Shown piece after piece: positions 13,913 through 47,986 of a stretch of DNA of 64,000 bases. Both the position numbers and the translations under genes were made by a program. Every line of letters begins with the position of its first letter. Position 1 is the first letter of the stretch. The stretch is taken from assembly GCA_026707145.1 (NCBI GenBank), contig JAPOXK010000006.1, forward strand, positions 1 through 64,000. Reading direction: 5' to 3'. The DNA comes from Chloroflexota bacterium (GTDB taxonomy: Bacteria; Chloroflexota; Dehalococcoidia; Bin125). Under the pieces are notes generated by a model. That model saw only the letters and a program-made list of their open reading frames with translations. It had not been told where the DNA came from and searched no databases.

Positions 13913-14327
13913 AGGTGGCAGAGGGCAGGGCGAGTCAGTGATCGAACAAACCTCGCTTCTACCTCGAGAGTATTGAGACAAGAAGGATGGGTGGAAAGCG
14001 AGGCTCTGCCGTATCCCACCCGGCTCCGCAGACTTAACCCTCCCATGCCCTTCGCTATTCTCATCGGCGAGCGTTGGTACACCGACCGAAACTGTACTAC
14101 GACCGGTCGGACTGGCCGTGAGCCACTAGGTCACGCCCCTCGAAGGGCCAGCTCCCAGACGGCTGGGCTGCTGGAGATGCGGGGCGCCTCGACAACCTCC
14201 AGGCGGCAGTCGCGGCGCACATGCCCGGCCGCTGGCCAACGGCGAGGACGGGGAAAGTCACAGTAGCAGTTCGACCACTGGCGAAGGCGCTCGCGCCGGA
14301 GGGCGCCGCCGCCCGTGGCCCCTCAGT
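13913..14327. other. intergenic region between glycosyltransferase and MMPL genes
   Basis: About 415 bp without a supported gene (less if the glycosyltransferase starts at 13981). It contains the second copy of the operator-like element (14091-14109) inside a larger ccgaccg...ccggtcgg inverted repeat. An open frame continuous with the MMPL gene from 14221 exists but reads as low-information Arg/Ala-rich sequence and is judged non-coding. Confidence 0.5.
14091..14109. repeat. operator-like element, copy 2 (ACTGTACTA + palindrome)
   Basis: ACTGTACTA followed by the perfect palindrome cgaccggtcg; preceded by accgaccga so that a longer inverted repeat spans about 14081-14110. It matches copy 1 at 17 of 19 positions. 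It lies about 230 bp before the MMPL start and about 180 bp before the glycosyltransferase start. Confidence 0.45.
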
Positions 14328-14340: not shown

Positions 14341-16824
14341 ATGAGTCAGATGCTCGACAGGTTGAGCCGGTTGGTCACGGCTCGCCCGTACTTCACGATC
14401 GCCGTCCTCCTCATCATTACCGTTGTGCTGGCCGCGGGTGCGACGCGGCGCGCACCTCTAGTGGAGGGCGCATCCTTGGCGTTCCTTCCTCCAGGGAACG
14501 CCGTCGCCGATGCGATCGAGGAGATCAATGAGCGCTTTGGAGACTCCGGCGAGGTCAGTGTTGTCACGCTCGTTTTCCGCGGGGAGGCGCTCACGCCCGA
14601 CGGACTCTCCCAGATGGACACCCTGGTCGATGCGATCGTGCGCGACCCGAGCGTAAGGGAGCTGCTGGCGCCCGCCGATCCCATCGTCACACCGACATCG
14701 CTGATCAAAGACCTTCTCGAAGTGGACAGCTTCGAGTCGGTCACGCAGGCGGAGATCGACTCCGCCGGCAGCGCCCCAGAGATCGGGAGGGCGCTCGCCG
14801 GGATGACGGGAACCGACACGGACGGCACGCCGGTCGCCATCGTCACCATCCGCCTGAGCGACACGGGCGACGAGAGAATTCAGGAGGCTGAGCGGAAGAT
14901 CGGCGACCTGGCGGCCGGGGACGCGGGCCCGCTGCGCGTGAGCAGCGTGTCGCCCGTAGTGGTTGAAGATGAGTACAAGGAGGCTACGGAGCAGGGGATG
15001 CAGCAGCTGATCGGGGTGGCCCTGCTGCTGATCGCAGCGCTGATCCTGGTCTTCATGCGATCGCTCTCCGACCTCCTGCTCACCCTGGCGGGGCTTCTCA
15101 TTGCGGTGATCTGGATCATCGGGGCGGAGGGCTGGCTGGGGCCGGACGCGCTGGGTCTGATCGGCCCGCCGAGTTCGCTCACGGTGGTGGTGCCGATCAT
15201 CATGATCAGCCTCACCGTGGACTATGCGATTCAGGCCGTCTCGCACTACCGCGAGCAGCGCGCTGCCGGCGAGCTGGTGCTGGGGGCGGTCCGGAGGGGA
15301 CTGCGCAACGTCGCCGTTCCACTCACGCTGGCCGCTGTCACGACGATCGTGAGCCTGTTGGCGAATCTGTTCTCCCCTATCGGAGTGATCGGCGACTTCG
15401 GCATCGTCGCGGGGCTGGGGGTGGGGATGAGCTTGATCGTGATGCTGACGCTGCTCCCGGCCGCGCGGACGATCATCGACCGGCGGCGCGAGTCACGGGG
15501 CACGTTGGCAGCGCCCCGCCCGATCGCGAACGCTCTGCCCGGAATCAAGCGGGGGGCGGAGCTGCTGGGAGCGGGGGCCGCACGCCGGCCGGCACCCTAC
15601 TTCGTCGTCGTGATCGCGGCGACGATCGGGCTCGGGTTCGCAGCCACGGGGCTCAAATCGGAATTCAGCATCCGTGACATCCTGCCCAGCGACGGGAGAG
15701 TGGTGGAGGATATGGAAACCCTCGACGCGGCCGTCGGCGGTTCAACAGAGATGGCCAGCGTCCTCGTGAAGGCCGAGGCCACCGAGACCCGCACGCTTCT
15801 GAACCTGCGGGACCTCACGGCCGCCTTTGAGGACGAACAGCGCCGACCCCGAGCGGCAGCGGGACCGATTCTGACATCGTACGAGTTGCTCGTACGCGAC
15901 TGGACCACCGACAGCGGGGAGCCCGGCGACAAATACGACCCGGAGCTCGCCGCGCTCTTCCAGGAAGCCTCGGTGGAAGTAGAACTCGATCCAGCGCTGA
16001 TGCAGGAGCTCCTCGACAAGCTGGAGGAGAGGGATCCCGTCGTCGCGCATGTTTTGGTCAACGACCCAGCAGGCATCGACGCCATGCTGCTCCAGTTCTT
16101 GGTCTACACGGACGATCCAGCGGAAACGGAGCTGATCCAGGAGGAGATCGACGCGCTTTGGTTGGGCGACGACGATGCGATCACGGCGACTTCGTCGAGT
16201 ATCACGGCGGTTACGGTCACGGACGAGATCACGAGCCGACAGACAGAGTCGATCAGCGCGACCATCGCGCTGGCTCTCGGCATCCTCGCCATCTTCTTCT
16301 GGCTGACGCTGCGCCAACCTGTGCTGGCCTTCATCGCGGTGGGCCCGATCGTATTCGTCCTCATCTGGGTGCTGGGCACGATGGCGCTCCTGGGTATTCC
16401 CTACACCCTGGTCACCTCGATCATTACGGCGCTCTCGATCGGGATCGGGGTGGACTACACGATCCATGTGATTCATCGCTACCGGGAGGAGTTCGCGCGT
16501 CTGCGCAATCCGGAGAAAGCAGCGATCCGGACGCTTTCGACCACGGGCTCGGCGCTGCTGGGCTCCGGGCTCACGACGGCGCTCGGGTTAGGAGTGCTGG
16601 TCGCCTCGCCGCTGCTGGCGTTCCAGCAGTTCGGCATCACGGCGGCGATCACGATCGTCTACTCGCTGATCGTCGCCATCCTGGTGGTACCGCCCGCGAT
16701 GACGGTCTGGGGCGCGTACCAGAACGCGCGGCTCCGCTCGATGGCGGAGCGTATGGCTGAGGAGCTTGACGTGGTGATCGAGCAAGTCCATCAACGCTAC
16801 GAGCAGGAACAGGCCTCGTCGTAG
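14341..16824 (+). CDS. MMPL/RND-superfamily lipid transporter
   Basis: 827-aa inner-membrane protein with the duplicated RND layout: one membrane helix (about 18-36), a large periplasmic loop, a bundle of five helices (GVALLLIAALILVFM..., VVVPIIMISLTVDYAIQAVSHYREQ), a linker, then a second copy (helix near 425, loop, SATIALALGILAIFFWL..., GIGVDYTIHVIHRYREEF). The conserved VDYAI/VDYTI helix-4 motifs carry the acidic residue used for proton coupling in this superfamily. Relatives (COG1033, HpnN, MmpL) move hopanoids, sterols or other lipids. It is co-directional with the sterol methyltransferase gene 217 bp downstream, so sterol or lipid trafficking is a reasonable but untested role. Confidence 0.88.
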   Translation: MSQMLDRLSRLVTARPYFTIAVLLIITVVLAAGATRRAPLVEGASLAFLPPGNAVADAIEEINERFGDSGEVSVVTLVFRGEALTPDGLSQMDTLVDAIVRDPSVRELLAPADPIVTPTSLIKDLLEVDSFESVTQAEIDSAGSAPEIGRALAGMTGTDTDGTPVAIVTIRLSDTGDERIQEAERKIGDLAAGDAGPLRVSSVSPVVVEDEYKEATEQGMQQLIGVALLLIAALILVFMRSLSDLLLTLAGLLIAVIWIIGAEGWLGPDALGLIGPPSSLTVVVPIIMISLTVDYAIQAVSHYREQRAAGELVLGAVRRGLRNVAVPLTLAAVTTIVSLLANLFSPIGVIGDFGIVAGLGVGMSLIVMLTLLPAARTIIDRRRESRGTLAAPRPIANALPGIKRGAELLGAGAARRPAPYFVVVIAATIGLGFAATGLKSEFSIRDILPSDGRVVEDMETLDAAVGGSTEMASVLVKAEATETRTLLNLRDLTAAFEDEQRRPRAAAGPILTSYELLVRDWTTDSGEPGDKYDPELAALFQEASVEVELDPALMQELLDKLEERDPVVAHVLVNDPAGIDAMLLQFLVYTDDPAETELIQEEIDALWLGDDDAITATSSSITAVTVTDEITSRQTESISATIALALGILAIFFWLTLRQPVLAFIAVGPIVFVLIWVLGTMALLGIPYTLVTSIITALSIGIGVDYTIHVIHRYREEFARLRNPEKAAIRTLSTTGSALLGSGLTTALGLGVLVASPLLAFQQFGITAAITIVYSLIVAILVVPPAMTVWGAYQNARLRSMAERMAEELDVVIEQVHQRYEQEQASS

Positions 16825-17041: not shown

Positions 17042-18025
17042 GTGCAACGCTTCGATGGATGGATCGATAGAGCGTCCGCAGAGCAGGCTGGTGCGCCGGG
17101 CTACGACCACGCCGAAACCGTCAAGGAATACTACGACCTTTGCGGTGAGTTCATGGTGTTCAGTTGGGGTGAATCCCTGCACTTCGCGCCGCTATCACCA
17201 CAGGAGAGCTTGGAGGAGTCCAAGATCCGGCATCAGCGACTGATGATCGCCAAGCTGGAGTTGCGCGAGGGCATGACAGTGATCGATGTCGGTTGCGGGA
17301 TCGGCGGCCCGATGCGCCGTGTCTCCCGTGAGGCCGGTGTTAGGGTCGTCGGGGTCAACAATAATAAAATCCAGCTTGACAAAGCGAAATCGTTGAACGC
17401 TGAGGCGGGGCTTGACCGCATGGTCGACTACCTCGAGTGCAGCTTCATGGACATGAGCGCCATTGCGGACGACACGTTCGACCGGGGTTACGCGATCGAA
17501 TCGACATGCCATGCGCCGGACAAGGTGGGCGCGTTCGCCGAGATCTACCGGGTGCTGAAACCCGGGGCCCTCTTCTGGGGTCAGGAAATGTGCATGACGG
17601 AAAAGTTCGATCCCGACGATAATCGGCACCGGGGCATCAAGCAGGACCTGATGCACGGCATCGCGCTCAAGGATATCGCAACGATGGATGAGGTGAATCG
17701 GGCGCTCGTAACGGCGGGATTCGAGGTTATCGAGGGGATTGACCGTGCCGTCGAGGAGAACGGTCCGACCACGCCGTGGTATCAGCCCATGGAAGCCCCA
17801 CACAGAACACTGGGTACCGCCCTGTGCAGATTCCCGCTGGGCCGCAAGGCGTTCATCGGGGCATCCAGCCTGGCTGAGGTGTTGGGGATGTTCCCCAAGG
17901 GCTCCGCGGACGTTGTCAGGTTGCTGGATCGGACCGCAAATGCCTACGTCGCGGGCGGCAAGGCAGGGATCTTCACGCCATTGTACTGTTTCTTGGCGCG
18001 CAAACCCCTTAGGCGCTCAGGCTAG
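17042..18025 (+). CDS. sterol C-24 methyltransferase (Erg6/SMT family)
   Basis: 327-aa SAM-dependent methyltransferase with every hallmark block of sterol 24-C-methyltransferases: the sterol-binding region I SWGESLHF (41-48), SAM motif I VIDVGCGIGGP (80-90), GVNNNK (104-109) with QLDKAK after it, AIESTCHAPDK (151-161), VLKPGALF (171-178), PWYQP, and a C-terminal sterol-MT domain ending TPLYCFLARKP (312-322). It should transfer a methyl group to the C-24 double bond of a sterol side chain. The GTG at 17042 is the first start after an in-frame stop at 17012, with ggggg about 11 nt upstream. Such enzymes are typical of eukaryotes and known from few bacteria. gamma-tocopherol methyltransferases share the SAM motifs but lack the SWGxSLHF and TPLYCF blocks. 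Confidence 0.9.
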   Translation: MQRFDGWIDRASAEQAGAPGYDHAETVKEYYDLCGEFMVFSWGESLHFAPLSPQESLEESKIRHQRLMIAKLELREGMTVIDVGCGIGGPMRRVSREAGVRVVGVNNNKIQLDKAKSLNAEAGLDRMVDYLECSFMDMSAIADDTFDRGYAIESTCHAPDKVGAFAEIYRVLKPGALFWGQEMCMTEKFDPDDNRHRGIKQDLMHGIALKDIATMDEVNRALVTAGFEVIEGIDRAVEENGPTTPWYQPMEAPHRTLGTALCRFPLGRKAFIGASSLAEVLGMFPKGSADVVRLLDRTANAYVAGGKAGIFTPLYCFLARKPLRRSG

Positions 18026-18062
18026 ATCCTTCCCGGTCTCTCGGGCGCAATCCATTGGTGCG

Positions 18063-20090
18063 TTAGACGTTCAGTTCGCGCCTCTGCTCAGCGATGACGC
18101 ACTTCACTTTTTTCTTTATAGACATCGACGGAAACATGTTGACCCGGAGCTTGGCGTTCGGAGGCGACAGCTCGAGCGTGAAGTAATGCGCGAGCATCAG
18201 CAGGTTGATAGCCACTTGCAACTCCACCCACCGGGCGCCGAGACATTTGTGCGTGCCCAGCCCAAACGGAGCATAGTTGGGCCCAACATGTTCATCGCGC
18301 GGAGGCAGATAGCGGTCGATATCGAATGAGAGGGGCTCCGGGAAAGCGTCGCTCATATAATGCGTGGCGGTCTGGGCGACGTAAATCTGCGCCCCCTCCG
18401 GCAGTTCGTAGTCCTCAACCACACACGTATTCATCACGTTTCGAACCGACATCGGGATGATCGGATAAAGACGCAGGCACTCCATGATGAAGCGGCGGGT
18501 GACATCGATCGCGGATGGGGTGAAGTCCTTGCCATCCGGATCGCCGCCGTCAAACAAAGCATCGGCTTCACTCCGGATTCTCTCGTAGAGCGCGGGCTGC
18601 GACACCATGGCGTAGACCACGAAGCTCAGCGTATCGCCACCGTACATGCTGGCGATCACCGGTGCCGTAAAATTGAAGCGCAGATTCGACTCCGGCAGGA
18701 ACTGTGGATCGCTCGCGTGCAGGCTGAGCAGCTCATCTGCAAGATCGCGAGGACAACCCGCCCGCTGGGCGGGCGTATGGTTACGCTGGACCCGCTCCAT
18801 CAGTACGTCGATCTTCTTCGCCCGGCGTCTCATGCTCGGGGTATGCAGCATGAATTTGGGCATGACTCCCAAGAGCATCGTTTTGAGTGCTCGTTCCTTG
18901 AATTTGACGAGATCGTCGAAGAGATCCTGCGAATCCACGCTGGCTAAGAACGGCGAGATCTGCGCGTTCATCAAACGCCGGCACAGGGTTACCATGGGGA
19001 CAGAGTCTCCAACCGCCCAATCCGCCATATGCGTCCGGGCAAGACGGTAGAGCTGATCCACCTGCCCTTCCAATCGCGCGCGCGAGTAACCCGGCTGCAG
19101 GGACTTACGAAGGCGAAAATGATCGGCGCCGTCCAGCGCCGGCAGCAGTCCCGACGCGCCATAGATCTTCTCGAAGTCGTGGAGATAGTCCCTGGATCTC
19201 AGATACATACGCCCGTGCCGGTGCGCCCAGTGATTTGTCTCGGGCCCGGCCAGAAAGATCATGGGTTTCTTAAACGGCGGGCGGATCTCGAACACCGGGC
19301 CGTGCTTCTCGGCGAGATCCGCAAAGAGTGCAGGAATGCTGCCGCCGCGAGCATGGGGATTGAGCAGAAGCCGCCGCAGCGGGACCGTCGGAATTGACTT
19401 AGCCAAGGCGGAGCGTCGAAGCCCCGGACCGGCGATGTTGACGGAGACCGCCTCGGCGATGGACCGGCCGATCAAATCCATCTTGCAGATGAGCTGGATC
19501 CGTTCCTCCGACTCGTCCTCAAGTTGGAACATGAAGCGAAAGAGATCACACGTATTGATGAGGCAGACAAGGATGATGTCTCTCGGGCTGGGAATCTCGT
19601 TGCTGAAGATCACCCTGCTGATGCGCGTTCGCACGAACTCAGCAGCGGTGCCTTCTCGGGAGCTGCTGAATAGATCCGTCTGCCAGGCAGTATTGGCTAG
19701 CGACCAGAAATCGCCCTCGTGGTGTTGCAGGATCTGCAGGTCAACCAAGCGATCGAGCGTCAGATCGATGATCGACTCCGCACGGGGAGCGAGCCGCTCG
19801 ATCCAGTACTGGGCGTTCCGTTGAACGGGTTCGCTCGCAATTTCCTTCAGGATGGGGTCCAGGACGGGGTCGCCCGTCTCCGTTTGGTCCAGAAGGATCA
19901 GGGATTCCATATCCGTGTCAATGCGAGAGTCCAGCGACAGTTCCGCGAGTACGGCGCCGACGACGGCGCAGTTCAAATTCCAGCCGGGTATTTGGCGAAA
20001 GTAGCCGCTCTCTTCGTTGAGGAGCATCAGGACGAGCTCGTCGGGCAAACTGAGCGACTGGGTGACCCCAGCTTTCGTCGCGAGAGCCAT
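18063..20090 (-). CDS. GPP34 domain-cytochrome P450 fusion protein
   Basis: 675-aa two-domain protein. Residues about 12-220 match the GPP34 (GOLPH3-like) fold: LSLPDELVLMLLNEESG, VVGAVLAELSLDSRID, DPVLDPILKEI, YWIERLAPRAESIIDLTLDRLVDLQIL. In eukaryotes this domain binds phosphatidylinositol-4-phosphate; its bacterial role is not settled. Residues about 235-675 are a full P450: I-helix GGDTLS (484-489), ExxR as ECLR (537-540), and the haem loop FGLGTHKCLG with Cys616 as ligand. Ordinary bacterial P450s are about 400-450 aa, so the extra length is the GPP34 part. It would need separate redox partners. It converges with the methyltransferase gene and diverges from the Rieske oxygenase gene, suggesting a sterol or other lipid hydroxylase; the CYP family is not assigned. 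Confidence 0.85.
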   Translation of the reverse strand: MALATKAGVTQSLSLPDELVLMLLNEESGYFRQIPGWNLNCAVVGAVLAELSLDSRIDTDMESLILLDQTETGDPVLDPILKEIASEPVQRNAQYWIERLAPRAESIIDLTLDRLVDLQILQHHEGDFWSLANTAWQTDLFSSSREGTAAEFVRTRISRVIFSNEIPSPRDIILVCLINTCDLFRFMFQLEDESEERIQLICKMDLIGRSIAEAVSVNIAGPGLRRSALAKSIPTVPLRRLLLNPHARGGSIPALFADLAEKHGPVFEIRPPFKKPMIFLAGPETNHWAHRHGRMYLRSRDYLHDFEKIYGASGLLPALDGADHFRLRKSLQPGYSRARLEGQVDQLYRLARTHMADWAVGDSVPMVTLCRRLMNAQISPFLASVDSQDLFDDLVKFKERALKTMLLGVMPKFMLHTPSMRRRAKKIDVLMERVQRNHTPAQRAGCPRDLADELLSLHASDPQFLPESNLRFNFTAPVIASMYGGDTLSFVVYAMVSQPALYERIRSEADALFDGGDPDGKDFTPSAIDVTRRFIMECLRLYPIIPMSVRNVMNTCVVEDYELPEGAQIYVAQTATHYMSDAFPEPLSFDIDRYLPPRDEHVGPNYAPFGLGTHKCLGARWVELQVAINLLMLAHYFTLELSPPNAKLRVNMFPSMSIKKKVKCVIAEQRRELNV

Positions 20091-20329
20091 GCGTTTTGCC
20101 CCCGTCCGTCATGGGAAAAGCCGAGGCGGCCTCGACTCTCCCCAACAAAGGATAGTTTACCTTACTTACCAGGCAGGGAAGAGGACGAATGACCGTCCCG
20201 AAAGGGACGCAGAACGTACGGGAAAGGGCGCGGACCTGGGTGTGATGGGCAAGCGCTTCTCGTATCCTAGGTGGGTGTCTTGGCAAGGGAGGCCGGCAAC
20301 CCGAGATTCTGGGTGAGGAGTATCGAAGG
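20091..20329. promoter_or_regulatory. divergent control region between P450 and Rieske genes
   Basis: 239 bp. TATCCT -10-like hexamers occur on the minus strand (20149-20154, towards the P450) and on the plus strand (20263-20268, towards the Rieske gene); neither has an obvious -35. A hairpin cgtccc-gaaa-gggacg lies between them at 20194-20209. GAGGAG about 10 nt before the ATG at 20330 is a good ribosome site for the Rieske gene. Joint regulation is inferred from the geometry only. Confidence 0.4.
20194..20209. repeat. perfect inverted repeat with GAAA loop
   Basis: Six-base-pair stem cgtccc/gggacg around a GAAA tetraloop, placed centrally in the divergent P450/Rieske intergenic region. It could be an operator or an RNA hairpin in a leader. 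No U tract follows on either strand, so it is not an intrinsic terminator. Confidence 0.5.
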
Positions 20330-21424
20330 ATGTCAACCCAGCGCGGGGAGCCCGCGATCACCCCGTTCCCTTCCCTGTTTCCCGAGGGCTGGTATTTCGT
20401 CGCAAGCCGCCGGGCCGTCCTGAAGGCGAAGCTCATCCAAAAGAGCTGGATGGGCGTGAACGTCGTCGTCTGGAGTGAAGAGAACGGGCGCGTCTGCGTC
20501 GCCGAGGCCGTCTGCCCGCACCTGGGCTCCGATCTGGGGCCCGCCGCGGGGGGGCGCATCTGCGATGGCCGGCTCGTCTGCCCCTTCCACGGCTTTGAGT
20601 TCGATACCACCGGTCAATGCGTCGCCACTCCCTTCGCCGCCCCACCCAGGTCCGCGAGGCTGCGAGTCTTCGAGACACGGGTCATCCACGGCCTGATCTT
20701 CGCCTGGTGGGGGATCGAGGGCCGGGAGCCGCAATGGCACCTGCCCGCGGACCCGGACCAGGTCGGCTGGAGTGACTTCGCGATCCAAACCCTCCGTTTC
20801 CCCGGCCATCCCCAGGAGACCACGGAGAACTCCGTGGATCTGGCTCACCTCCGCTACGTCCACGGATACGACAATGTGGGCGGCGTCGAGCCGGTAGCAG
20901 TGGACGGCCCCTTACTCAAGACCGGCTTCGACTTCAGGTCATCCCGGCGCATCGCTGGAATCATGACCCTCAACTTCGATATCTCCGCCAAAGCCCGCAT
21001 CTATGGGCTGGGATACTCGTTCGTGGAGATCCACGAGCGCTCGATCGGCATGGATTTGCGTCTGTGGGTCTTGGCGACGCCGGTTGACGGCACGCTCATC
21101 GATCTCTCGCTGGTCTCGCAGGTGCAGGAGATGCGCAATCCGAAGCGGCGGATCGCCGGTCTGGGATTTTTGCCGCAGAGGATGCGCGCGCCCCTCATGA
21201 ACAAGTTCATGTCGCTGCAGCAGAAGCACGATGTACTGCAGGACGTGGTGATCTGGGGTCGCAAACACTACCTATCCCAACCGCGCCTCTGCCGCTCCGA
21301 TGGGGAGATGAGGGCCTTCCGATCCTATTGCGCCCAGTTCTATCCCGATCCGAGCAATTACAGAGACTCGACTCCCCAAGGCTCGCCGTCGGCATCTGCG
21401 ATCAAGGCTACGGTGGGCACATAA
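20330..21424 (+). CDS. Rieske non-haem iron oxygenase (sterol-type candidate)
   Basis: 364-aa oxygenase component. The Rieske [2Fe-2S] ligands are Cys62/His64 (CPH) and Cys84/His87 (CPFH). The mononuclear iron site follows as N167-x2-D170-x2-H173-x4-H178, exactly the facial-triad spacing with its bridging Asp. The overall length and layout resemble the KshA/cholesterol 7-desaturase/SdmA-like group that acts on steroids and other bulky lipids. It needs an external reductase, and none is encoded beside it. The start is supported by GAGGAG about 10 nt upstream. Its position among the sterol methyltransferase, P450 and flavoenzyme genes makes a sterol substrate likely; which carbon it attacks is unknown. 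Confidence 0.85.
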   Translation: MSTQRGEPAITPFPSLFPEGWYFVASRRAVLKAKLIQKSWMGVNVVVWSEENGRVCVAEAVCPHLGSDLGPAAGGRICDGRLVCPFHGFEFDTTGQCVATPFAAPPRSARLRVFETRVIHGLIFAWWGIEGREPQWHLPADPDQVGWSDFAIQTLRFPGHPQETTENSVDLAHLRYVHGYDNVGGVEPVAVDGPLLKTGFDFRSSRRIAGIMTLNFDISAKARIYGLGYSFVEIHERSIGMDLRLWVLATPVDGTLIDLSLVSQVQEMRNPKRRIAGLGFLPQRMRAPLMNKFMSLQQKHDVLQDVVIWGRKHYLSQPRLCRSDGEMRAFRSYCAQFYPDPSNYRDSTPQGSPSASAIKATVGT

Positions 21425-21557
21425 GACCGCCTGAGTCTCGTGGTGCTGCAACCGTTCGCACGCTCAGAACACGGAGCGCGCGAACGTGGGGATCGGATCG
21501 CCCACTGCTACCCACATAGCTCACCCCGGCCCGCAAGGAGCATCGTGGCACTCAGCG

Positions 21558-22916
21558 CTACGCCTTCCGGAATCGTGAGCCGTACATGATGCTCCCGTAA
21601 TAGTTGAACGACCGCTTCGCTGCAGGATCGTCGAAGGGGTAGTCGGCGCCGATCTGTCTCGCAGTGGCGAGCCCGGTAACGAGGCAGGTTTCCTGGCTGT
21701 TGATCAGCGTATGAGCGCCACAGTGCCACGTTCGTCTCTTGCCCTGAATGAAGCGGAACAAGTTGACGAGCAATACCACATGCCGCACGTCATGGACGAT
21801 GTGCTGAAACCACCACCTCTTGAGGATCCTTCGCTCATCAATGGGACTGATCGGGTTGTAGGTCACCAGACAAGGCTTATCGGACCGATTCGCCCATGGT
21901 TGCTGGTTGTGCATGATGTACGTGATCTCATAGTTGTCCGGTCTCGCGCTGTACTGCTCGACATGCGTGCTCCGCGTTGTCAGGGGCTGCACCTCGTTGT
22001 CCGGCAGGACTGAGGCGTCGGAGTGGACGACCGCGTGGTTGTGCAGCTCGCTCTCGTAACGGATCGACGAGAGAAGATAGCGCTCAAGAAGCGTGGGCTT
22101 ATCGAGAAGCATCAGCGTCTGGTTCGCGTTGCATGCGAACACCACCTGGTCGAACGTCTCCCGGACGCCGTCCTCGTCCTCGACCACGACGCAGGACGCC
22201 CGCCGGTACACCTTTCGGACGGGCCGGTTGCAGTAGATCTTGTCCCGAAAGTCGGCCGATAAGCTTTCGTAGATGCGGCGTGTTCCCTGGTCCCAGGTCT
22301 GCATGGGCGTCGCGGTTTCGATATCGAAGAATTCGAGATACCTCGCGAAGAGCGCTGCGGGCATATCGAACACGTTCGTCGCCATCAGGAAATTGACGAA
22401 CATGGGTTTCAGAACCTTGTAGCGGAAGTCCCCGGAAAATCCTCCCAGATTCAGGACCGTCCCCATGCTGAGGTAATTGAACGGGTTGAGGGCGTTCAGC
22501 AACTTCGACTGGGAGCGGCTCAGCCAACCAAACCAATGTAACCACCTCAAGACTCGCTGGAACTTCGCAATCTCCGCTTGCAGCTGCTCCCTGATCTCGG
22601 AATCGAAGTCGTGGGCGTAGACCTGGCCTCCGTACTTCACGCTGTAGCTGAACCGGGTATCGATCAGCTCGATGCCGAATTTTTCCATCAGCAGCAGGAC
22701 GTGGTGATAGACCGACGGGATGCAAGCGGTGACGGAGATGTCGAAGGGGATCGAGCTGCCGTCATCCTGCGGCATATCGGCGGTAATCGCATTGCCGCCA
22801 ACCTGTTCCTGCGCCTCGAACAGCCGAAAACCAAAACGGTCCGGGTGGTGATGCAGCGCCCATGCAGCGCCCAGCCCTGAAATGCCGCCACCAATAATGG
22901 CAATGCGTCGTGGCAT
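21558..22916 (-). CDS. FAD-dependent amine-oxidase-like oxidoreductase (COG2907-like)
   Basis: 452-aa flavoprotein. The FAD-binding GGGISGLG lies at residues 9-16, followed by the FEAQEQVGGN second glycine motif of the amine oxidase/phytoene desaturase superfamily. The middle (FVNFLMATNVFDMPAALFARYLEFF) and the C-terminal GLATARQIGADYPF block are of the COG2907 type, predicted flavin-containing oxidoreductases often found near lipid methyltransferases. The ATG at 22916 was chosen over 22958 because it places the dinucleotide fold at the N terminus and has GAGAGG 5 nt upstream. It converges with the Rieske gene. A hydride-transfer step on the same sterol or lipid (desaturation, reduction or isomerisation) is inferred from context. 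Confidence 0.8.
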   Translation of the reverse strand: MPRRIAIIGGGISGLGAAWALHHHPDRFGFRLFEAQEQVGGNAITADMPQDDGSSIPFDISVTACIPSVYHHVLLLMEKFGIELIDTRFSYSVKYGGQVYAHDFDSEIREQLQAEIAKFQRVLRWLHWFGWLSRSQSKLLNALNPFNYLSMGTVLNLGGFSGDFRYKVLKPMFVNFLMATNVFDMPAALFARYLEFFDIETATPMQTWDQGTRRIYESLSADFRDKIYCNRPVRKVYRRASCVVVEDEDGVRETFDQVVFACNANQTLMLLDKPTLLERYLLSSIRYESELHNHAVVHSDASVLPDNEVQPLTTRSTHVEQYSARPDNYEITYIMHNQQPWANRSDKPCLVTYNPISPIDERRILKRWWFQHIVHDVRHVVLLVNLFRFIQGKRRTWHCGAHTLINSQETCLVTGLATARQIGADYPFDDPAAKRSFNYYGSIMYGSRFRKA

Positions 22917-23061
22917 GGACCCTCTCTCGCCGGCCGCCATGGCCTCCTGTCCTACCACCGTCGTTGGCTGCTGGCTAGTCGGCGTAGCATCCTCTGACAG
23001 GTGGGCCTCCCGACCCTGCTGGGTGTGTGCGGATTGTAAGCGTCGCCCTCGTACGCCCTGC

Positions 23062-23645: not shown

Positions 23646-23710
23646 CGTCGTTCAGGCGTCCGCAATCCGCTTCAGCCACCAGAGTCAATGATTCCCACAG
23701 TCCACATTGG

Positions 23711-23783
23711 TACCCCCGGCAGGACTCGAACCTGCGCTTCCGGCTCCGGAGGCCGACGCTCTATCCGGCTGAGCTACGGGGGC
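23711..23783 (-). tRNA. tRNA-Arg (anticodon CCG)
   Basis: A full cloverleaf folds on the minus strand: acceptor gcccccg/cgggggt (first pair G-U), D arm gctc...gagc, anticodon arm tcggc-ctccgga-gccgg with CCG at positions 34-36, a 4-nt variable loop, and T arm gcagg-ttcgagt-cctgc. The discriminator is A, and CCA is encoded immediately after it (23708-23710). It reads CGG codons. It stands alone between tag and a VOC gene. Confidence 0.95.
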
Positions 23784-41865: not shown

Positions 41866-43306
41866 TGGCAACATCGATGAGCAGCGAAGGCGCCAGCCCG
41901 ATCACCAGCACGCCCGCACTCGTCAGACCCAGCGTCAGGGCAAGCGGTGCGTTGGGGCGCCAGCGCGCGGGCATCTCGACGGTGGGCGCAGCCTCGTCGA
42001 CGAACATCGCCTTCACCGGGCGGAGATAGTAGACGGCACTGATCACGGAGTTCACGACCCCGACCACGGCCAGCCAAGCCAAATCGCTCTGGACTGCAGC
42101 GTCAAACAGGTAGACTTTACCGAAGAAGCCTGCGGTCGGCGGAAAGCCCGTGAGGGAGATCAGGCTGAAGGCAAGCAAGGCCCCGAGCAACGGCGCACGC
42201 TTCCCCAGCCCGCGATAGGCATCGATCTCGCACGACCCGATCCGATTGAAGACCGCGATCACAACCAGGAACGCGGTCAGGTTGGTGACGGCGTATCCCG
42301 CCAAGTAGAACAGAATTCCCCCTGATCCCAGAGAAATCGAGCGGTCCGCCGTGATCGCCGCGAGACCGATCAAGATCGTGCCCGCCTGTGCGATGGACGA
42401 GTAGCCCAACATTCGTTTGAGGTCCGCCTGCTGAATCGCCAGGATGTTGCCCACGAACATCGAGAGCACCGCCAGCACGGCGAAGATCGTCGACCAGTGA
42501 GCGCTGAGCAGCTCGGCGCCGAGCGCTTCCAGAAATACGCGTATCAGAATGGCGAAAGCGGCCGCCTTGGAGGCCACGGAGAGATAGGCCGCAATAGGCG
42601 TGGGGCCGCCTTGGTATACATCGGGCACCCACATCTGGAACGGCACGATGGCTGCTTTGAATCCGAAGCCCACGATCAGGAACACCATCGCGAGCAGCAG
42701 CGCCTCGATAACCCCGCTGTCGCCATCGGCGACGTATTCGGCGATGGCGCTCAGATTGGTCGATCCACTCAGCCCCAACAGGATCGCCATCCCGTAGAGC
42801 AAGATCGCAGAGGCGATCGCCCCAAGCAGCAGATATTTCAGCCCCGCCTCACTGGAGAGACGATCCTTATGAAAGCCGACCAGGATGTACTGCGAGATGC
42901 TGGTCAGCTCCAGGGCCACGAAGATCCCGATCAGGTCCCGCGTCCCCGCCAAGAGCATCAAGCCGGCCGTACTGAACAACAGCAGGGCAAGGTACTCGCC
43001 CTGGCGCGACGGGAAGCGAGCCAGCGCGTCCCACGACGCCGCGATCACCGCCAAGGCCACGCCACCCAGCAAGAACTGGAAGAAGAGCGCGAACTGATCA
43101 AAGACCAACACCTCGTCGAACGCGGTGCGCCCGACTTTGCCATCGGCGAGAAGAATGGCGCTGTAAGCCACAGCGCCGAGCACAGCTGTCATGGCAGTGG
43201 CGACGAGCACCCGGCGATCGCGCACAACCAATTCCGCCACCAGCAACATGCCGCCGACGCACATCAAAACGAGTTGCGGCCCGAAGAGGTTGACTTCACC
43301 GAGCAT
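41837..43306 (-). CDS. nuoN: NADH-quinone oxidoreductase subunit N
   Basis: 489-aa antiporter-like membrane subunit of complex I with about 14 helices. The Mrp-type core is seen in LGYSSIAQAGTILIG, GFKAAIVPFQMWVPDVYQGGPTPIAAYLSVASKAAAFA (with the conserved Lys of the proton channel) and SLTGFPPTAGFFGKVYLF. It pumps protons with NuoL and NuoM. Its ATG overlaps the nuoM stop (TGATG). It is the last nuo gene. Confidence 0.95.
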   Translation of the reverse strand: MLGEVNLFGPQLVLMCVGGMLLVAELVVRDRRVLVATAMTAVLGAVAYSAILLADGKVGRTAFDEVLVFDQFALFFQFLLGGVALAVIAASWDALARFPSRQGEYLALLLFSTAGLMLLAGTRDLIGIFVALELTSISQYILVGFHKDRLSSEAGLKYLLLGAIASAILLYGMAILLGLSGSTNLSAIAEYVADGDSGVIEALLLAMVFLIVGFGFKAAIVPFQMWVPDVYQGGPTPIAAYLSVASKAAAFAILIRVFLEALGAELLSAHWSTIFAVLAVLSMFVGNILAIQQADLKRMLGYSSIAQAGTILIGLAAITADRSISLGSGGILFYLAGYAVTNLTAFLVVIAVFNRIGSCEIDAYRGLGKRAPLLGALLAFSLISLTGFPPTAGFFGKVYLFDAAVQSDLAWLAVVGVVNSVISAVYYLRPVKAMFVDEAAPTVEMPARWRPNAPLALTLGLTSAGVLVIGLAPSLLIDVANEAVTIFVD

Positions 43307-44895
43307 CAGCCGCCCCTCCCCAGTCGAGCGACCTCCAAGGCCTCGCTCTCGACGACGTCAGGCTGGACAACCGCGATCCCCTCGGCGATCGGCCGCACGC
43401 CCAACTCGAAGACATCCAGAACCACCGATGGGTACACACCCAGCAAGACGATCAGGCTCACCAGCGCCCCGAGCGGCAGGAACTCCCACCAGGCCCGCAC
43501 GTCTTGCAGTTCTCGCCAACGCTCGTCACGCGGCCCGAAGACCGACCGTTGCAGAGCCCATAACACATAGCCCGCCGCCAGCAACACCCCGATCAGCGCC
43601 ACCGCCGTCTGCGGCTCATGCCGTCCGAACGCGCCCAAGAACACTGTCACCTCAGAGACGAACCCAGCCAGGGCCGGAAGTCCCAACCCCGCTAGCCCTG
43701 CGAAGACCAGCATCGCGCTAAGCAGCGGCAGGTAATGGGCTAACCCCCGCATCGCTGAGATCTGACGGGTATGGGTTCGGTCGTAGATCATCCCCACCAC
43801 CACAAACAGCATCCCGGTGATCAGCCCGTGCGTGACCAGCTGCATCGCCGCCCCGCTCATCCCCACCACGCCCAGCCCGGCAACGCCCAGCAACACGAAT
43901 CCCATATGCGACACGGACGAGTAGGCCACCAGCCGCTTTAGATCGGTCTGGCGCACCGTGATCACCGCCCCGTAGATGATCGAAACGGCCGCGAGGATCG
44001 CCAGCGCCACATCGGCTGCAGCAGCGGTCTCCGGCATCAGCGTGAACAGCAAGCGCAGGATGCCGTATCCCCCCATCTTGAGCAGGACGCCCGCCAGCAT
44101 CACCGACGCCGCGGTGGGAGCGTCGGTGTGCGCGTCGGGCAACCACGTGTGGACGGGAACCACCGGCAGCTTGATCCCGAATGCGAGGAAGATGAAGGCG
44201 AAGATCGCGGGTACCGGCAGCACCGCGCCCGCCAGCGCCGACTCTTGGATCTCCCGCATATCGAAGGTGCCGGCCGCCACACCCATGACCAAGAAGCCGA
44301 CGAGCATGAAGGCGGAACCGAAGAAAGTGAACAGGACGAATTTCATGGCCGAGTAGCTACGCCGCCCGCTTCCCCAGACGTTGATCAGGAAGAACATCGG
44401 CAAGAGTTCGAGTTCCCAGAAGATGAAGAAGAAGATCAGGTCCAACGATGTGAACACGCCCAGAACCGATGTCTCCAACACCAACAGCCAGGCGAAGTAC
44501 TCCTTGGGCCGCACGTTGATCCGCCAGGAGATCAGGACGGCAATAGTGGTGAGCAGCCCCGTCAGCAGCACCAGCGGCATCGACAGCCCGTCGACGCCGA
44601 AGGCGTACGAAACATCGAACCCCACATCTTGCGCGCTGACCCACAGGAACGTATCGGTGAACTGAAAGCCACTACCGGCGCGGTCGAAGAGCACGAACAG
44701 CACCAGCGCAATCACCAGCGTGGCGAATGCGAACGCGAGCGCGATCCACTTGGCAGACGCCTGCTGATCACCCGGTAGGACGCGCACCGCGACTGCCGGC
44801 CAGTGCACCCGCTGGCCCGGCAATAGCGCGATCAGCAGCGCCCCAGCCAGGGGTAAGAACACCAGGACCGAGAGGATGGGAAAGCCTTCGCCCAT
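43306..44895 (-). CDS. nuoM: NADH-quinone oxidoreductase subunit M
   Basis: 529-aa antiporter-like subunit. Conserved blocks include LFFIFWELELLPMFFLINVWG, GIKLPVVPVHTWLPDAHTDAPTAASVMLAGVLLKMGGYGILR and RLVAYSSVSHMGFVLLG. The ATG at 44895 (MGEGFP) was chosen because it follows the nuoL stop by 16 nt and gives the normal N terminus; the longer frame would overlap nuoL. Confidence 0.95.
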   Translation of the reverse strand: MGEGFPILSVLVFLPLAGALLIALLPGQRVHWPAVAVRVLPGDQQASAKWIALAFAFATLVIALVLFVLFDRAGSGFQFTDTFLWVSAQDVGFDVSYAFGVDGLSMPLVLLTGLLTTIAVLISWRINVRPKEYFAWLLVLETSVLGVFTSLDLIFFFIFWELELLPMFFLINVWGSGRRSYSAMKFVLFTFFGSAFMLVGFLVMGVAAGTFDMREIQESALAGAVLPVPAIFAFIFLAFGIKLPVVPVHTWLPDAHTDAPTAASVMLAGVLLKMGGYGILRLLFTLMPETAAAADVALAILAAVSIIYGAVITVRQTDLKRLVAYSSVSHMGFVLLGVAGLGVVGMSGAAMQLVTHGLITGMLFVVVGMIYDRTHTRQISAMRGLAHYLPLLSAMLVFAGLAGLGLPALAGFVSEVTVFLGAFGRHEPQTAVALIGVLLAAGYVLWALQRSVFGPRDERWRELQDVRAWWEFLPLGALVSLIVLLGVYPSVVLDVFELGVRPIAEGIAVVQPDVVESEALEVARLGRGG

Positions 44896-44911
44896 TATGC
44901 GCGCACGCTCC

Positions 44912-46849
44912 TCATGCCCAGAAGAGCACGACGGCACCCCAAACCACGACACCGCCGGCAACCAACGCCACCGCCATCATCTGGACCTGTCCGTTCTGCA
45001 CCAAGCGCCCCCAGCGCCCCGCCTCGAAGCTCGCGTGCCAGACTCCGTCCAAGGCCCGATCGACCCCTTGCTCATCAACGCGCGCCATAGCCCTCGCCAA
45101 CCCACCGTGGAAGAAGCGCCGCACCAGCCCATCCTCAACCAACAGGTCCATGTAGAGCTTGCTCTCGAGCGCGTGATACACCGGGCGTAGCCTTCCGGCC
45201 CGCAGGGCCGCGACGTTGATGAGTCGCAACTGGTAGACCGCTACCGCGCCGCCGATGCCAGCCGCCGCGACGATGGTCGATGCCAAGAACACGCCGAGAT
45301 CAAAAACGAAGTGCCCTTCCTTCGGGTGCGGTAGCGCCCCCAGCACCCAGGTCTGAAACTCACCGCCGAAGGTGAGGAACCCGGCCGCAACAGCGGGGAC
45401 TGCCAACAGCACCAGCACACCGCGCATGCTCCAAGACGACTCATGCGGGTGAGCGGCGTCACCACCATGCCCGCCCGGTTCTAGCTGTCCGCCGCCCCGG
45501 TAAGAGCCGTGAAAGGTCAGAACGATCGCGCGGAACATGTAGAAAGCCGTCAACCCCGACGCGACGAGGGCGAGGGCGAAGATCGCTCGCTGGTGATCCC
45601 AGGCCTCGATCAAGATCTCATCTTTCGACCAAAAGCCGGCCAGGGGAATCACTCCAGAGAGAGAGAGCGCGCCGATCACAAAGGTCAGGTATGTCACCGG
45701 CATCGCGGTGCGCAACCCGCCCATGCGCCGCATATCGAACGTATTGGTCGCGTGGTTGACCGAGCCCGCACCCAGGAAGAGCAGCGCTTTGAAGAAGGCA
45801 TGGGTCATCAAGTGGAAGAAGGCAGCAGCGTAGGCTCCCGTGCCCAGGGCGAACATCATGTAGCCGATCTGGCTAATCGTGGAGTAGGCCAGCACGCGCT
45901 TGATATCGGTCTGTACAACCGCGACCAAGCCCGCACCGAGCGCTGTCCCGACGCCGATCCACGCGATCAAGTCGCTCGCAGTCGCGGATGCCTCCAGCAC
46001 CGGGAAGAAGCGGCCTAGCAGGTAGACCCCCGCCACGACCATCGTCGCCGCGTGGATAAGCGCCGAAACCGGCGTCGGTCCCTCCATCGCATCCGGCAAC
46101 CAGATATGCAGCGGGAACTGCGCGCTCTTGCCAACCGCGCCCGCCACCAACCCGACTGCAAACAATGTCAGGGTCGTCTGCCCCAGCAATCCCAGCTCCA
46201 CCGCACCCACGATCTCAGTGTTGATCGTGGCGATATCCAAGGTCCCAGCGCGCACCCAGATAAAGATCAGCGCAGCCAAGAGCCCTAAATCGCCGGCGCG
46301 AGTGACGAGGAATGCCTTCTTGGCGGCCGCCGCCGCCGCTGGTTTGTGGAACCAAAAGCCAATCAGTAAGTACGAAGCCAGACCGACAAGTTCCCAGAAG
46401 GCAAACAGCACCACCAAGTTGTCGACGAGCACCAGACCCAACATCGCCGCCGTGAAGAGCGACATATAGGCGAAATAGCGCGCGTAGCCGCGGTCGCCGT
46501 GCATGTAGCCGGTCGAATAGACCTGGACTAAGAACGACACCGCCGTTACCACCACCATCATCACGGCGGTCAATCCGTCCAACCGGATGCCAATAGTGAT
46601 CAAGAGCGATCCCACATCGACCAACTCGTGGGTTTCGAAACCCAGTGGCTGGCCGGCGGCGTTGATCGTTTCCATCAGCAGCCAGACCGATATCCCCAGC
46701 GATCCACCAACCGTGATCATCGCGATCCATCCGGCGGGGGCCGAATATCTGCGCAGCACCGGGTAGAGCGCCGCGATCAGAACGAAGGACGCGACTGGAA
46801 GCCCGAGAATCAGCCAAACAACGACTTCGGAAACCGGCGTGCTCATCAA
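44912..46849 (-). CDS. nuoL: NADH-quinone oxidoreductase subunit L
   Basis: 645-aa largest antiporter-like subunit, with about 16 helices and the long lateral amphipathic helix at its C terminus. Motifs include NLVVLFAFWELVGLASYLLIGFW, KSAQFPLHIWLPDAMEGPTPVSALIHAATMVVAGVYLL and RVLAYSTISQIGYMMFALG. Its ATG overlaps the stop of the preceding small gene (ATGA). Confidence 0.95.
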   Translation of the reverse strand: MMSTPVSEVVVWLILGLPVASFVLIAALYPVLRRYSAPAGWIAMITVGGSLGISVWLLMETINAAGQPLGFETHELVDVGSLLITIGIRLDGLTAVMMVVVTAVSFLVQVYSTGYMHGDRGYARYFAYMSLFTAAMLGLVLVDNLVVLFAFWELVGLASYLLIGFWFHKPAAAAAAKKAFLVTRAGDLGLLAALIFIWVRAGTLDIATINTEIVGAVELGLLGQTTLTLFAVGLVAGAVGKSAQFPLHIWLPDAMEGPTPVSALIHAATMVVAGVYLLGRFFPVLEASATASDLIAWIGVGTALGAGLVAVVQTDIKRVLAYSTISQIGYMMFALGTGAYAAAFFHLMTHAFFKALLFLGAGSVNHATNTFDMRRMGGLRTAMPVTYLTFVIGALSLSGVIPLAGFWSKDEILIEAWDHQRAIFALALVASGLTAFYMFRAIVLTFHGSYRGGGQLEPGGHGGDAAHPHESSWSMRGVLVLLAVPAVAAGFLTFGGEFQTWVLGALPHPKEGHFVFDLGVFLASTIVAAAGIGGAVAVYQLRLINVAALRAGRLRPVYHALESKLYMDLLVEDGLVRRFFHGGLARAMARVDEQGVDRALDGVWHASFEAGRWGRLVQNGQVQMMAVALVAGGVVVWGAVVLFWA

Positions 46850-47046
46850 ACCTTGCGCATCACTTCGCGCGCGACGTGCGTCTTCGAATCGGGGACGAAA
46901 ATTTTTCGCGGCGTGAAGTCACTCGCGACAGCGTCCTCCGGCGGAGCGGCAACGACGAGGCGCGTCGCGATCCCCTCGGCGTGGAAAAGCTCACGCCACG
47001 TCTCCGCCACGTAGCGGTTCGGAACCTCCATCAGTTCAGCCCACAT
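46846..47046 (-). CDS. small DUF2007-like protein inside the nuo operon
   Basis: 66-aa soluble protein reading MEVPNRYVAETWRELFHAEGIATRLV...PRKIFVPDSKTHVAREVMRKV. The pattern of an alternating alpha-beta fold, a substrate-free charged tail and 'vas-e-a-lr.. gi' spacing resembles the DUF2007 (putative signal-transducing) family, which is only a tentative match. It lies 6 nt after nuoK and overlaps nuoL by four bases, so it is certainly co-translated. A complex I assembly or regulatory role is inferred only from position. It is not any of the 14 canonical subunits. Confidence 0.7.
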   Translation of the reverse strand: MWAELMEVPNRYVAETWRELFHAEGIATRLVVAAPPEDAVASDFTPRKIFVPDSKTHVAREVMRKV

Positions 47047-47052
47047 GCCGAC

Positions 47053-47367
47053 CTACCACTTCAGCAAGTTCACGCGATCGACGTTGATCGTGTCGCGATT
47101 GCGATAGACGACCATCGCGAGCGCTAGACCTACCGCGATCTCCGCCGCGGCCACCGCGATGATGAACACGACGAACACGCTCGTGGACAGCGCCACCTCG
47201 CTCTCCACGAAACGCCCGAAGGCCACCAGCGTTAAGTTGACCGCGTTAAGCATCAACTCGACGCCCATCAGCACGCCGATTGCGTTGCGCTTGGCCAGCG
47301 CCACGTACAACCCCACCCCGAAAAGCAGCGCCCCCAGCACCAAAAAGTGTTCGAGCCCAATGGTCAC
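47053..47367 (-). CDS. nuoK: NADH-quinone oxidoreductase subunit K
   Basis: 104-aa three-helix subunit with the two conserved Glu of the central half-channels: GVELMLNAVNLTLVAFGRF and AVAAAEIAVGLALAM. Length is typical. Its ATG overlaps the end of nuoJ (ATGA). Confidence 0.95.
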   Translation of the reverse strand: MTIGLEHFLVLGALLFGVGLYVALAKRNAIGVLMGVELMLNAVNLTLVAFGRFVESEVALSTSVFVVFIIAVAAAEIAVGLALAMVVYRNRDTINVDRVNLLKW

Positions 47368-47924
47368 GAGCTTCCGCCCGAATCCTCCCGACCTTCCAGG
47401 GTCAGGCTCTGTTCATGCGCGTCGATATCCTCGTCGTCGCGGCGTGCCAGCGCTACCGCGCCGACCAGCGCCGCCGTCAGCAGCACGGCAGCGATCTCGA
47501 ACGGCAGGACGAATTCGTTGATCAACGACTGGCCGATGATCCGTGCCGATTCCGCCACCGGCTCCTCGCGGACGGCGCCCCAGTCGGTCTCGAGTGCAAC
47601 GAACACGGTCGCGGCAATGACGAGGCCCATCAAAATCAATCCCGGGTAGCGCATCGCCGTCTCGGCATTATCCCGCGCCGCCCGCGGAGTGAGCAGGATC
47701 GCGAACAGCATGAGCACCGAGATGGCGCCGACGTAGACCAAGATCTGGACGACGGCGATGAACTCTGCTGAGAGCAACAGATAGAGGCCCGCGACGCCGA
47801 TGAAGCTCAAGATCAGCATGACCATCGCGTGAATTAAGTTGCGGCTGACAAGGATGCCGAGCGCGGCGCCAACGGTGATCACCGCCAACGACCAAAACGC
47901 TAAATGGTGTCCAACGCCGTCCAC
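47364..47924 (-). CDS. nuoJ: NADH-quinone oxidoreductase subunit J
   Basis: 186-aa five-helix subunit with LYLLLSAEFIAVVQILVYVGAISVLMLFAILL, the pi-bulge helix region typical of NuoJ. It follows nuoH after 62 nt, the place where nuoI is normally found. The C-terminal tail is acidic and hydrophilic. Confidence 0.94.
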   Translation of the reverse strand: MDGVGHHLAFWSLAVITVGAALGILVSRNLIHAMVMLILSFIGVAGLYLLLSAEFIAVVQILVYVGAISVLMLFAILLTPRAARDNAETAMRYPGLILMGLVIAATVFVALETDWGAVREEPVAESARIIGQSLINEFVLPFEIAAVLLTAALVGAVALARRDDEDIDAHEQSLTLEGREDSGGSS

Positions 47925-47986
47925 GTACCCTCGCCTGCATTGACCAGCCGAAGCCAGCCCTGTTTGCGCCGCTCCAGAAGCGGCTG

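Follow-up and report, generated by a model that had tools for sequence, protein, structure and literature searches.

A recurrent five-gene cassette in a Chloroflexota genome, predicted to tailor sterols obtained from outside the cell

The first 64,000 nucleotides of contig JAPOXK010000006.1 (assembly GCA_026707145.1), from a Chloroflexota bacterium of the class Dehalococcoidia, contain a compact group of genes built around a homologue of sterol C-24 methyltransferase (SMT). We refer to this whole stretch as the window. A first-pass annotation had described four genes of the group, and all four lie where it placed them, with their catalytic motifs intact; only the end given for the flavoenzyme (22916) had to be corrected, as it is an internal ATG and the longest frame opens at GTG 22958. 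A fifth member, an RND/MMPL transporter that lies directly upstream and recurs with the set, had been overlooked. The five genes, in mixed orientation, are as follows.

14341..16824, plus strand: RND/MMPL-superfamily transporter with sterol-sensing domain (SSD) similarity (Pfam MMPL, Sterol-sensing and Patched)
17042..18025, plus strand: SMT homologue of 'clade A' (PF08498 match, motifs and clade-specific residues)
18063..20090, minus strand: GPP34 (GOLPH3-like)-cytochrome P450 fusion, 675 aa (PF05719 and PF00067)
20330..21424, plus strand: KshA-type Rieske oxygenase (PF00355 and PF19298, both above cut-off)
21558..22958, minus strand: flavin adenine dinucleotide-dependent enzyme of the amine oxidase family (PF01593, 54 bits)

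The five genes are strongly co-inherited across bacterial phyla, and the set is predicted to alkylate and oxidise sterols that the cell obtains from elsewhere.

The methyltransferase matches Sterol_MT_C (PF08498) with 56.1 bits, as compared to the Pfam cut-off of 21.7. Enzymes of this family are expected to carry the S-adenosylmethionine (SAM) motif GCGxGGP, the Region III motif [YF]xIE[AS]TCHAP and the Region I motif YE[YF]GWG. The first two are matched, by DVGCGIGGP at position 82 and YAIESTCHAP at position 150, while Region I deviates (MVFSWG), and the earlier statement that all family blocks are present was thus slightly too strong. In clade A, Met38 is invariant in 90 of 90 rows and the Region I consensus is FMVF, whereas the 14 sequences of two sister clades have the consensus FYEF, with Tyr at position 38. 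Region I is the sterol-binding block, and the Tyr and Glu that are replaced here help to bind the sterol in Erg6. The substrate or the regiochemistry of clade A may therefore differ, and the premise that an SMT acts only on sterols is unsafe for this clade. We regard the window protein as a member of the SMT family, predicted to methylate sterol side chains. The remark that few bacteria make C-24-alkylated sterols is outdated, since bacterial SMTs with in vitro activity on sterols have been published; 8 of 10 assayed SMTs from sponge metagenomes and 12 of 14 from other environments were active (PMC10070321).

Other SMTs in the surroundings of this lineage have different settings. Six loci of a sister genus (L035, L036, L037, L039, L040 and L041) carry a clade-A SMT without the cassette neighbours, with three genes for complex-I antiporter-like subunits on one side and two for glutamine synthetase on the other (Pfam for L036, similarity for the others). 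The sister genus also possesses a third SMT clade (34-37% identity), which has a Rieske oxygenase of its own as partner (L050, L055, L056, L057, L058 and L062); at L058, the pair lies between two amidohydrolases and a xanthine/uracil-type permease (Pfam). Across the two annotated loci (L036 and L058), the SMT neighbours comprise genes of complex-I type and genes for glutamine synthetase, amidohydrolases, a permease and a Rieske protein. A collection of plasmids held no SMT at 60% identity or more, and 89 records fell below that level.

The fusion protein consists of a GPP34 domain at residues 15-215 (111 bits, cut-off 29.1) and a P450 domain at residues 249-654 (122 bits). The P450 part contains the heme loop FGLGTHKCLG at 609 and ECLR at 537, matching the FxxGxHxCxG and ExxR motifs. 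Its structure model (mean predicted local distance difference test score 82) adopts the P450 fold, with CYP184A1 and a CYP51 as the top matches and P450 BM3 close behind. CYP51 enzymes carry the I-helix motif GQH[TS]; the corresponding region here reads YGGDTLS by eye, and, given also the GPP34 fusion, a CYP51 identity was rejected. The GPP34 domain is related to human GOLPH3 clearly by profile and weakly by single sequence (E 0.12), and may tether the P450 to the membrane. No full-length GPP34-P450 was present in the plasmid collection, where a single record matched the P450 part only (28.7%), and a literature search for both terms gave three insect papers, as judged from the listing and abstract openings. 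A second lineage of the fusion, with 42-46% identity, was observed at L083:12068-14086, L095:590-2749, L119:3227-5248 and L127:14633-16654 and 18253-20277, indicating that the fusion forms a family with paralogues. More distant relatives (33%) are found in three genomes of the phylum.

The Rieske protein comprises Rieske and KshA_C domains, and its metal sites, CPH...CPFH and DLAHLRYVH, are intact, as first reported. Its best solved relative is the oxygenase of 3-ketosteroid 9alpha-hydroxylase (KshA; E 1e-22, 84 bits). Assignment as the sterol C-4 demethylase SdmA was rejected, at 30 bits for NF052579 against a curated cut-off of 600. The flavoenzyme, labelled COG2907-like in the first-pass annotation, has LkcE as its best solved relative (E 3e-29) and also matches 2b9w, a 'putative aminooxidase' (E 2e-8), which we take to be a polyenoic fatty acid isomerase. 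These relatives suggest that the flavoenzyme desaturates or isomerises a C=C bond. Its identity across the SMT loci is 76-88%.

The longest frame of the transporter opens at 14221, and homology begins at about residue 41. It scores 168 bits for MMPL, 50 for Sterol-sensing and 43 for Patched, its solved relatives include MmpL3, HpnN, NPC1 and Patched, and its identity across SMT loci is 67-76%. Two specific identities were rejected by curated cut-offs: the sterol transporter BstA (51 bits, cut-off 1400) and the hopanoid transporter HpnN (64 bits, cut-off 1100, and 110 bits, cut-off 752). Steroid-type signatures are thus found in three of the five cassette proteins, as Sterol_MT_C, KshA_C and the SSD.

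To define the cassette, named genomes were scanned with the SMT alignment, and the best 80 of 566 confirmed SMT relatives were taken as named loci. Their SMTs share 69-82% identity with that of the window and come from nine phyla. Partners were called by tblastn in fetched flanks of up to 10 kb, requiring a minimum bit score in addition to an identity of at least 45%. The GPP34-P450 was found in 50 loci, the Rieske oxygenase in 50, the flavoenzyme in 29 and the window-type transporter in 21; at least one of the four accompanies the SMT in 59 of the 80 loci, and all four do so in 16. As a control, six other window genes were sought in the same way: one (TAG) occurs in one locus and the other five in none. 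Unbiased clustering of the neighbouring open reading frames (ORFs) at 111 loci placed exactly the five cassette families on top. Further recurrent families did not extend the cassette: two of them (5 and 6) turned out to encode alternative transporters, family 7 is heterogeneous and without a clear function, and family 9 consists of ORFs that overlap the SMT on the opposite strand.

Co-occurrence extends to whole genomes. Among 61 genomes (the window's own and its relatives), the SMT (E 1e-30) is present in 16 and the GPP34-P450 (E 1e-60) in 17, namely the same 16 and one more. In 400 genomes sampled evenly across the phylum, with at most 5 or 2 candidates scored per genome and with thresholds of at least 64% identity for a close SMT and at least 54% for the GPP34-P450, 23 genomes carry the SMT and 26 the fusion; both are present in 22, neither in 373, the SMT alone in one and the fusion alone in four (Fisher p 4e-31, uncorrected for kinship). 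The two genes are neighbours less than 60 bases apart in 19 of the 22 co-carriers, and in G025, G002 and G007 they co-occur even on different contigs. Two genomes with only a 42-43% SMT lack the P450. Five relatives with only distant SMTs (36-44%) possess it, showing that the P450 is not strictly tied to clade A.

The arrangement of the genes is fluid. The 32 named loci that contain at least four of the five genes show 21 orders and orientations, the commonest being that of the window itself (5 loci), and an operon or fixed block was rejected on this basis. The first-pass annotation had correctly described the genes as convergent and divergent rather than as a single operon. Its suggestion that they gathered under shared control is not supported by the 21 orders and the mixed orientation. 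That the set is kept together despite rearrangement argues for selection on linkage, and not for one recent block transfer. It might be supposed that these genes merely accumulated by chance in a transfer-prone spot and act on unrelated compounds, as the mixed orientation, the shuffled order and the ordinary housekeeping genes on the flanks would allow. However, these five families head the ranking of recurrent neighbours, the control genes gave one match in 80 loci, and the genome-level association persists across contigs; a chance neighbourhood is strongly disfavoured.

The transporter position is subject to non-orthologous replacement. Exactly one of three non-orthologous RND types occupies it in 51 of the 80 loci, none in 29 and two in no locus. 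The window-type MMPL transporter is found in 21 loci (19 Chloroflexota and 2 Actinomycetota), and a different HAE3/MMPL transporter in 14 (5 Dadabacteria, 5 Pseudomonadota and one each of Nitrospirota, Nitrospinota, Myxococcota and unclassified). An AcrB-type transporter is found in 16 (9 Gemmatimonadota, 4 Acidobacteriota and 3 Pseudomonadota). Similarity among the three types is weak and local. This pattern would fit a transport step that each lineage solved with a pump suited to its envelope.

The identity of SMTs to that of the window does not track RelA identity. RelA of the window shares 44-57% identity (median 51) with that of 21 named Chloroflexota and 33-46% with that of 19 genomes of other named phyla, whereas the SMTs of the latter 19 are 70-81% identical; the RelA values of L076, L095 and L124, the 33% among them, are partial matches that were kept in the count. 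In a Dadabacteria metagenome-assembled genome (MAG), for example, the SMT is 81% and RelA 38% identical. Over 43 genomes, three of them without a named phylum, the two identities are hardly correlated (Spearman 0.21, p 0.17). An SMT tree built by a quick method requires 20 phylum changes, as compared to a minimum of 8 and a shuffled mean of 40, and its starred branches force three or four changes for each of the four largest phyla, although binning errors and the submitters' taxonomy are possible sources of false changes. Fewer changes are required by the trees of the P450 (10, minimum 6), the Rieske oxygenase (9, minimum 8) and the flavoenzyme (10, minimum 6), and that of the transporter shows none beyond its two phyla, so that the evidence for repeated transfer is weaker for these genes than for the SMT. 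A horizontally spread cassette is the best reading of these data. A recent arrival detectable by composition was rejected: the mean G+C content at third codon positions is 0.79 in the five genes and 0.76 in the 29 other window ORFs (p 0.48), and the lower GC of the stretch is therefore no evidence of recent arrival.

We then considered whether the carriers could make sterols themselves. The window's own genome (2.42 Mb, 28 contigs, 92.6% complete) contains no match to squalene epoxidase of the PF08491 type, the only type sought, and none to oxidosqualene cyclase (OSC). The first-pass annotation had proposed this very search, and its outcome is that the sole cyclase is a squalene-hopene cyclase (SHC) by its motif DIDDSA, located beside genes read as squalene-synthase-type. 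The survey was extended to 46 carriers of a close SMT (the window's own genome, G004, G025 and 43 named genomes). No cyclase was matched in 21 of them and only fragments in 2, while 20 carry a full SHC-type gene and 6 an OSC-type gene, three having both; an OSC-type match is thus absent from 40 of the 46. All six OSC-type loci contain V[ST]DCTAE and the SHC-type loci DxDD[TS]A; in a wider list, some cyclase loci of relatives carry neither motif. PF08491 exceeds the cut-off in nine carriers, strongly in five (77-104 bits), each in frame with the OSC, and weakly in four (20-25 bits, in separate frames), a level that the E. coli and Caulobacter controls also reach.

These data bear on the idea that the organism makes sterols de novo by a partial pathway resembling the published clusters discussed below, its cyclase genes having been missed. 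The OSC-type matches in 6 of the 46 carriers speak for it, as do the epoxidase-OSC fusions with V[ST]DCTAE in the sister genus, which belongs to the same family. The missing epoxidase and OSC matches in the own genome, the 40 carriers without an OSC-type match and the absence of the core genes of those clusters from the cassette speak against it, and we judge it very improbable. In eight sister-genus genomes, squalene epoxidase and OSC share one ORF of 1064-1277 aa (for example G011:C10:17852-20722 and L046:10251-13745), and several of these fusions adjoin a second SMT clade. The fusion itself is not novel, as MsbE has been published (PMC7074536).

A gene of the ERG4/ERG24 sterol reductase family is present in the window's own genome, away from the island (PF01222, 115 bits, with the motif GVARHFNYLGE):

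G000:C6:9650-10789 (L227): ERG4/ERG24-family gene, adjoining an ORF that matches an ISXO2-like transposase over a short stretch

The family occurs in 33 of the 46 SMT carriers and in none of 14 control genomes; its neighbours are not conserved among 12 fetched loci. A bacterial 8,14-sterol reductase has been reported (PMC13277303).

Taken together, the lack of a cyclisation-gene match, the presence of a sterol-reductase-family gene and the strong co-inheritance support the first-pass proposal of an island for tailoring sterols made elsewhere as the best-supported reading, in which a sterol is the putative substrate. We estimate at roughly two in three the probability that the island serves to alkylate and oxidise external sterols, supplied by the host, its food or co-symbionts. 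In the following scheme, the sterol substrate, the order and positions of the reactions, the way in which the transporter works, what GPP34 does and how the cell benefits are all proposals. Sterols supplied by the sponge, by its diet or by nearby symbionts would enter the membrane, where the SMT-family enzyme would transfer a methyl group from SAM to the side-chain alkene. The flavoenzyme might then shift or create a double bond in the methylated product, and the KshA-type Rieske oxygenase and the P450, the latter anchored to the membrane through GPP34, would hydroxylate the ring system or the side chain. The RND transporter would carry the product, or the substrate, through the envelope, and the ERG4/ERG24-family reductase encoded elsewhere could remove a double bond from the ring or the side chain.

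Several observations count against this interpretation. Region I of the window SMT (FMVFSWG) departs from FYEFGWG, the consensus of the two sister clades, and clade A could act on a different acceptor or at a different carbon. No steroid-specific signature is present in the P450 or in the flavoenzyme, and RND proteins of the same kind handle hopanoids, mycolates and drugs as well. The SMT stands alone in 21 of the 80 loci and in 10 of the 42 with full 10-kb flanks, many contigs being short. The 22 co-carriers fall in four families, so that the counts are not independent, and three genomes of one family (G178, G216 and G400) have the P450 with no SMT at E 1e-50. PF01222 is absent from 13 of the 46 carriers, including G004 of the same family. 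Finally, absence calls are limited by MAG incompleteness as well as by the single epoxidase type sought, and the own SHC makes an endogenous hopanoid substrate possible.

Some of these points fit a cassette that tailors a non-sterol terpenoid, such as an endogenous hopanoid, a linear triterpene, a carotenoid or a quinone, for which an SMT-fold enzyme was recruited. The own SHC next to genes read as squalene-synthase-type, the altered Region I, the occurrence of HpnN among the relatives of the transporter and a flavoenzyme family that includes polyene desaturases and isomerases would all agree with it. We nevertheless consider it unlikely: 21 of the 46 carriers have no triterpene cyclase match, which makes hopanoids improbable as the common substrate, the best solved relatives of the Rieske oxygenase are 3-ketosteroid hydroxylases, and the SSD match and the distribution of the ERG4/ERG24 family point to sterols.

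Alternatively, the KshA-type Rieske oxygenase and the P450 could start the breakdown of host steroids for carbon. The KshA_C domain and the relationship to KshA are compatible with this, and steroid-degradation signatures have been reported, including a KshA cluster from sponge MAGs only (PMC5790920). In the same source, however, Chloroflexi lack the full set and hsaC. A methyltransferase that adds carbon is unexpected in a catabolic set, and no known steroid-degradation gene appears among the annotated recurrent neighbour families (not all were annotated, and the own genome was outside this search). Catabolism is thus quite improbable, and we retain the tailoring of external sterols.

A more specific proposal is that the cassette is exchanged among phyla inside sponges, where it would yield alkylated and oxygenated sterols through a divergent SMT clade and a membrane-tethered GPP34-P450, with the transporter swapped to suit each envelope. 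This proposal is tentative, and we place it somewhat below even odds. Judging from its relatives, the genome that contains the window is probably that of a sponge symbiont, and many of the other carriers apparently come from sponges. Isolates named SB06xx, jk18x, p16x, the bin-numbered MP contigs, OX and CATO are presumed from their names to come from sponges, and the labels RHO, COS, IRC and APA were matched, by our own assignment, to species seen in a paper.

The island is flanked on one side by genes for a methyladenine glycosylase, a glyoxalase-family protein, ComM, RelA, HisRS, MetRS and TatD (Pfam; ComM and RelA by reading), and on the other by a glycosyltransferase and a cyclophilin. 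A tRNA-Arg (ccg) at 23708-23783, about 750 bases past the island, is a possible integration site; no integrase was found among the 18 window ORFs scanned with Pfam. Elsewhere in the window, positions 42001-48000 show a strong AT skew (0.22-0.30) across 6 kb of minus-strand ORFs, one of which contains a tRNA-Ala call that is probably spurious.

The sterols of sponges are chemically unusual and are used as fossil biomarkers, and there is disagreement over which organisms produce them. Among the bacterial candidates published so far, many are genomes or clusters with the potential for de novo sterol synthesis. The present cassette occurs across nine phyla, mostly in bacteria without a cyclisation-gene match, and is held together despite reshuffling. 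If the exchange within sponges proposed above is correct, some of the unusual sterols of sponges, certain biomarkers among them, would come from non-cyclising symbionts that finish the work of others. Such a division of labour becomes directly testable with four enzymes. The GPP34-P450 fusion may find its functional context here as well, and the cassette points to a dedicated transport step.

The bacterial SMTs of PMC10070321, which were active on desmosterol and 24-methylenecholesterol, belong to the same family, and that study includes a Chlamydiae MAG in which an SMT is the only homologue of sterol biosynthesis genes; its main text contains neither the word P450 nor the word Rieske. A study of sterol reductases in sponge-associated Chlamydiae, another phylum, describes ERG-type reductases as enriched in sponge-associated bacteria and proposes horizontal acquisition, with no cassette mentioned in the available text (PMC9666466). 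A word search of the main texts of PMC9426513 and PMC8163846 found no sterol, steroid, P450 or methyltransferase. The window Rieske oxygenase shares the domain architecture and metal-binding motifs of KshA, but is distant in sequence (84 bits) and linked to an SMT. Likewise, the transporter resembles HpnN, BstA and NPC1-type lipid transporters as an RND-superfamily protein with SSD similarity, but lies far below the curated cut-offs of HpnN and BstA.

Two published gene clusters are likewise comparable. The ERG24-CYP51-LSS clusters (CSGs), present in 115 of 537 Ircinia symbiont MAGs from ten phyla, resemble the cassette in their multi-phylum sponge symbiont hosts and proposed horizontal transfer, and SMT is enriched there and often flanks the cluster (PMC9531527). 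They differ in encoding lanosterol synthase, CYP51 and a delta-14 reductase for de novo synthesis, whereas the window cassette has no cyclase, and the available text mentions no GPP34-P450, flavoenzyme or RND transporter. The msb locus of a gammaproteobacterial symbiont of Melophlus combines an SMT (msbF) with a Rieske oxygenase (msbB), and other members of the holobiont are suggested to modify the core sterol (PMC7074536). In contrast to the cassette, it includes msbE, a bifunctional squalene epoxidase/cyclase, together with a C30-demethylase, with no GPP34-P450, amine-oxidase-type flavoenzyme or RND transporter mentioned in the accessible portion. We recognised no description of the cassette among the literature titles and abstract openings that were listed, a body that leaves out most subscription papers and all bioRxiv preprints. 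Bacterial SMTs and sterol clusters of sponge symbionts are already known, and the distinctive traits of the present cassette are its lack of cyclisation genes, its GPP34-P450 fusion and its interchangeable transporters.

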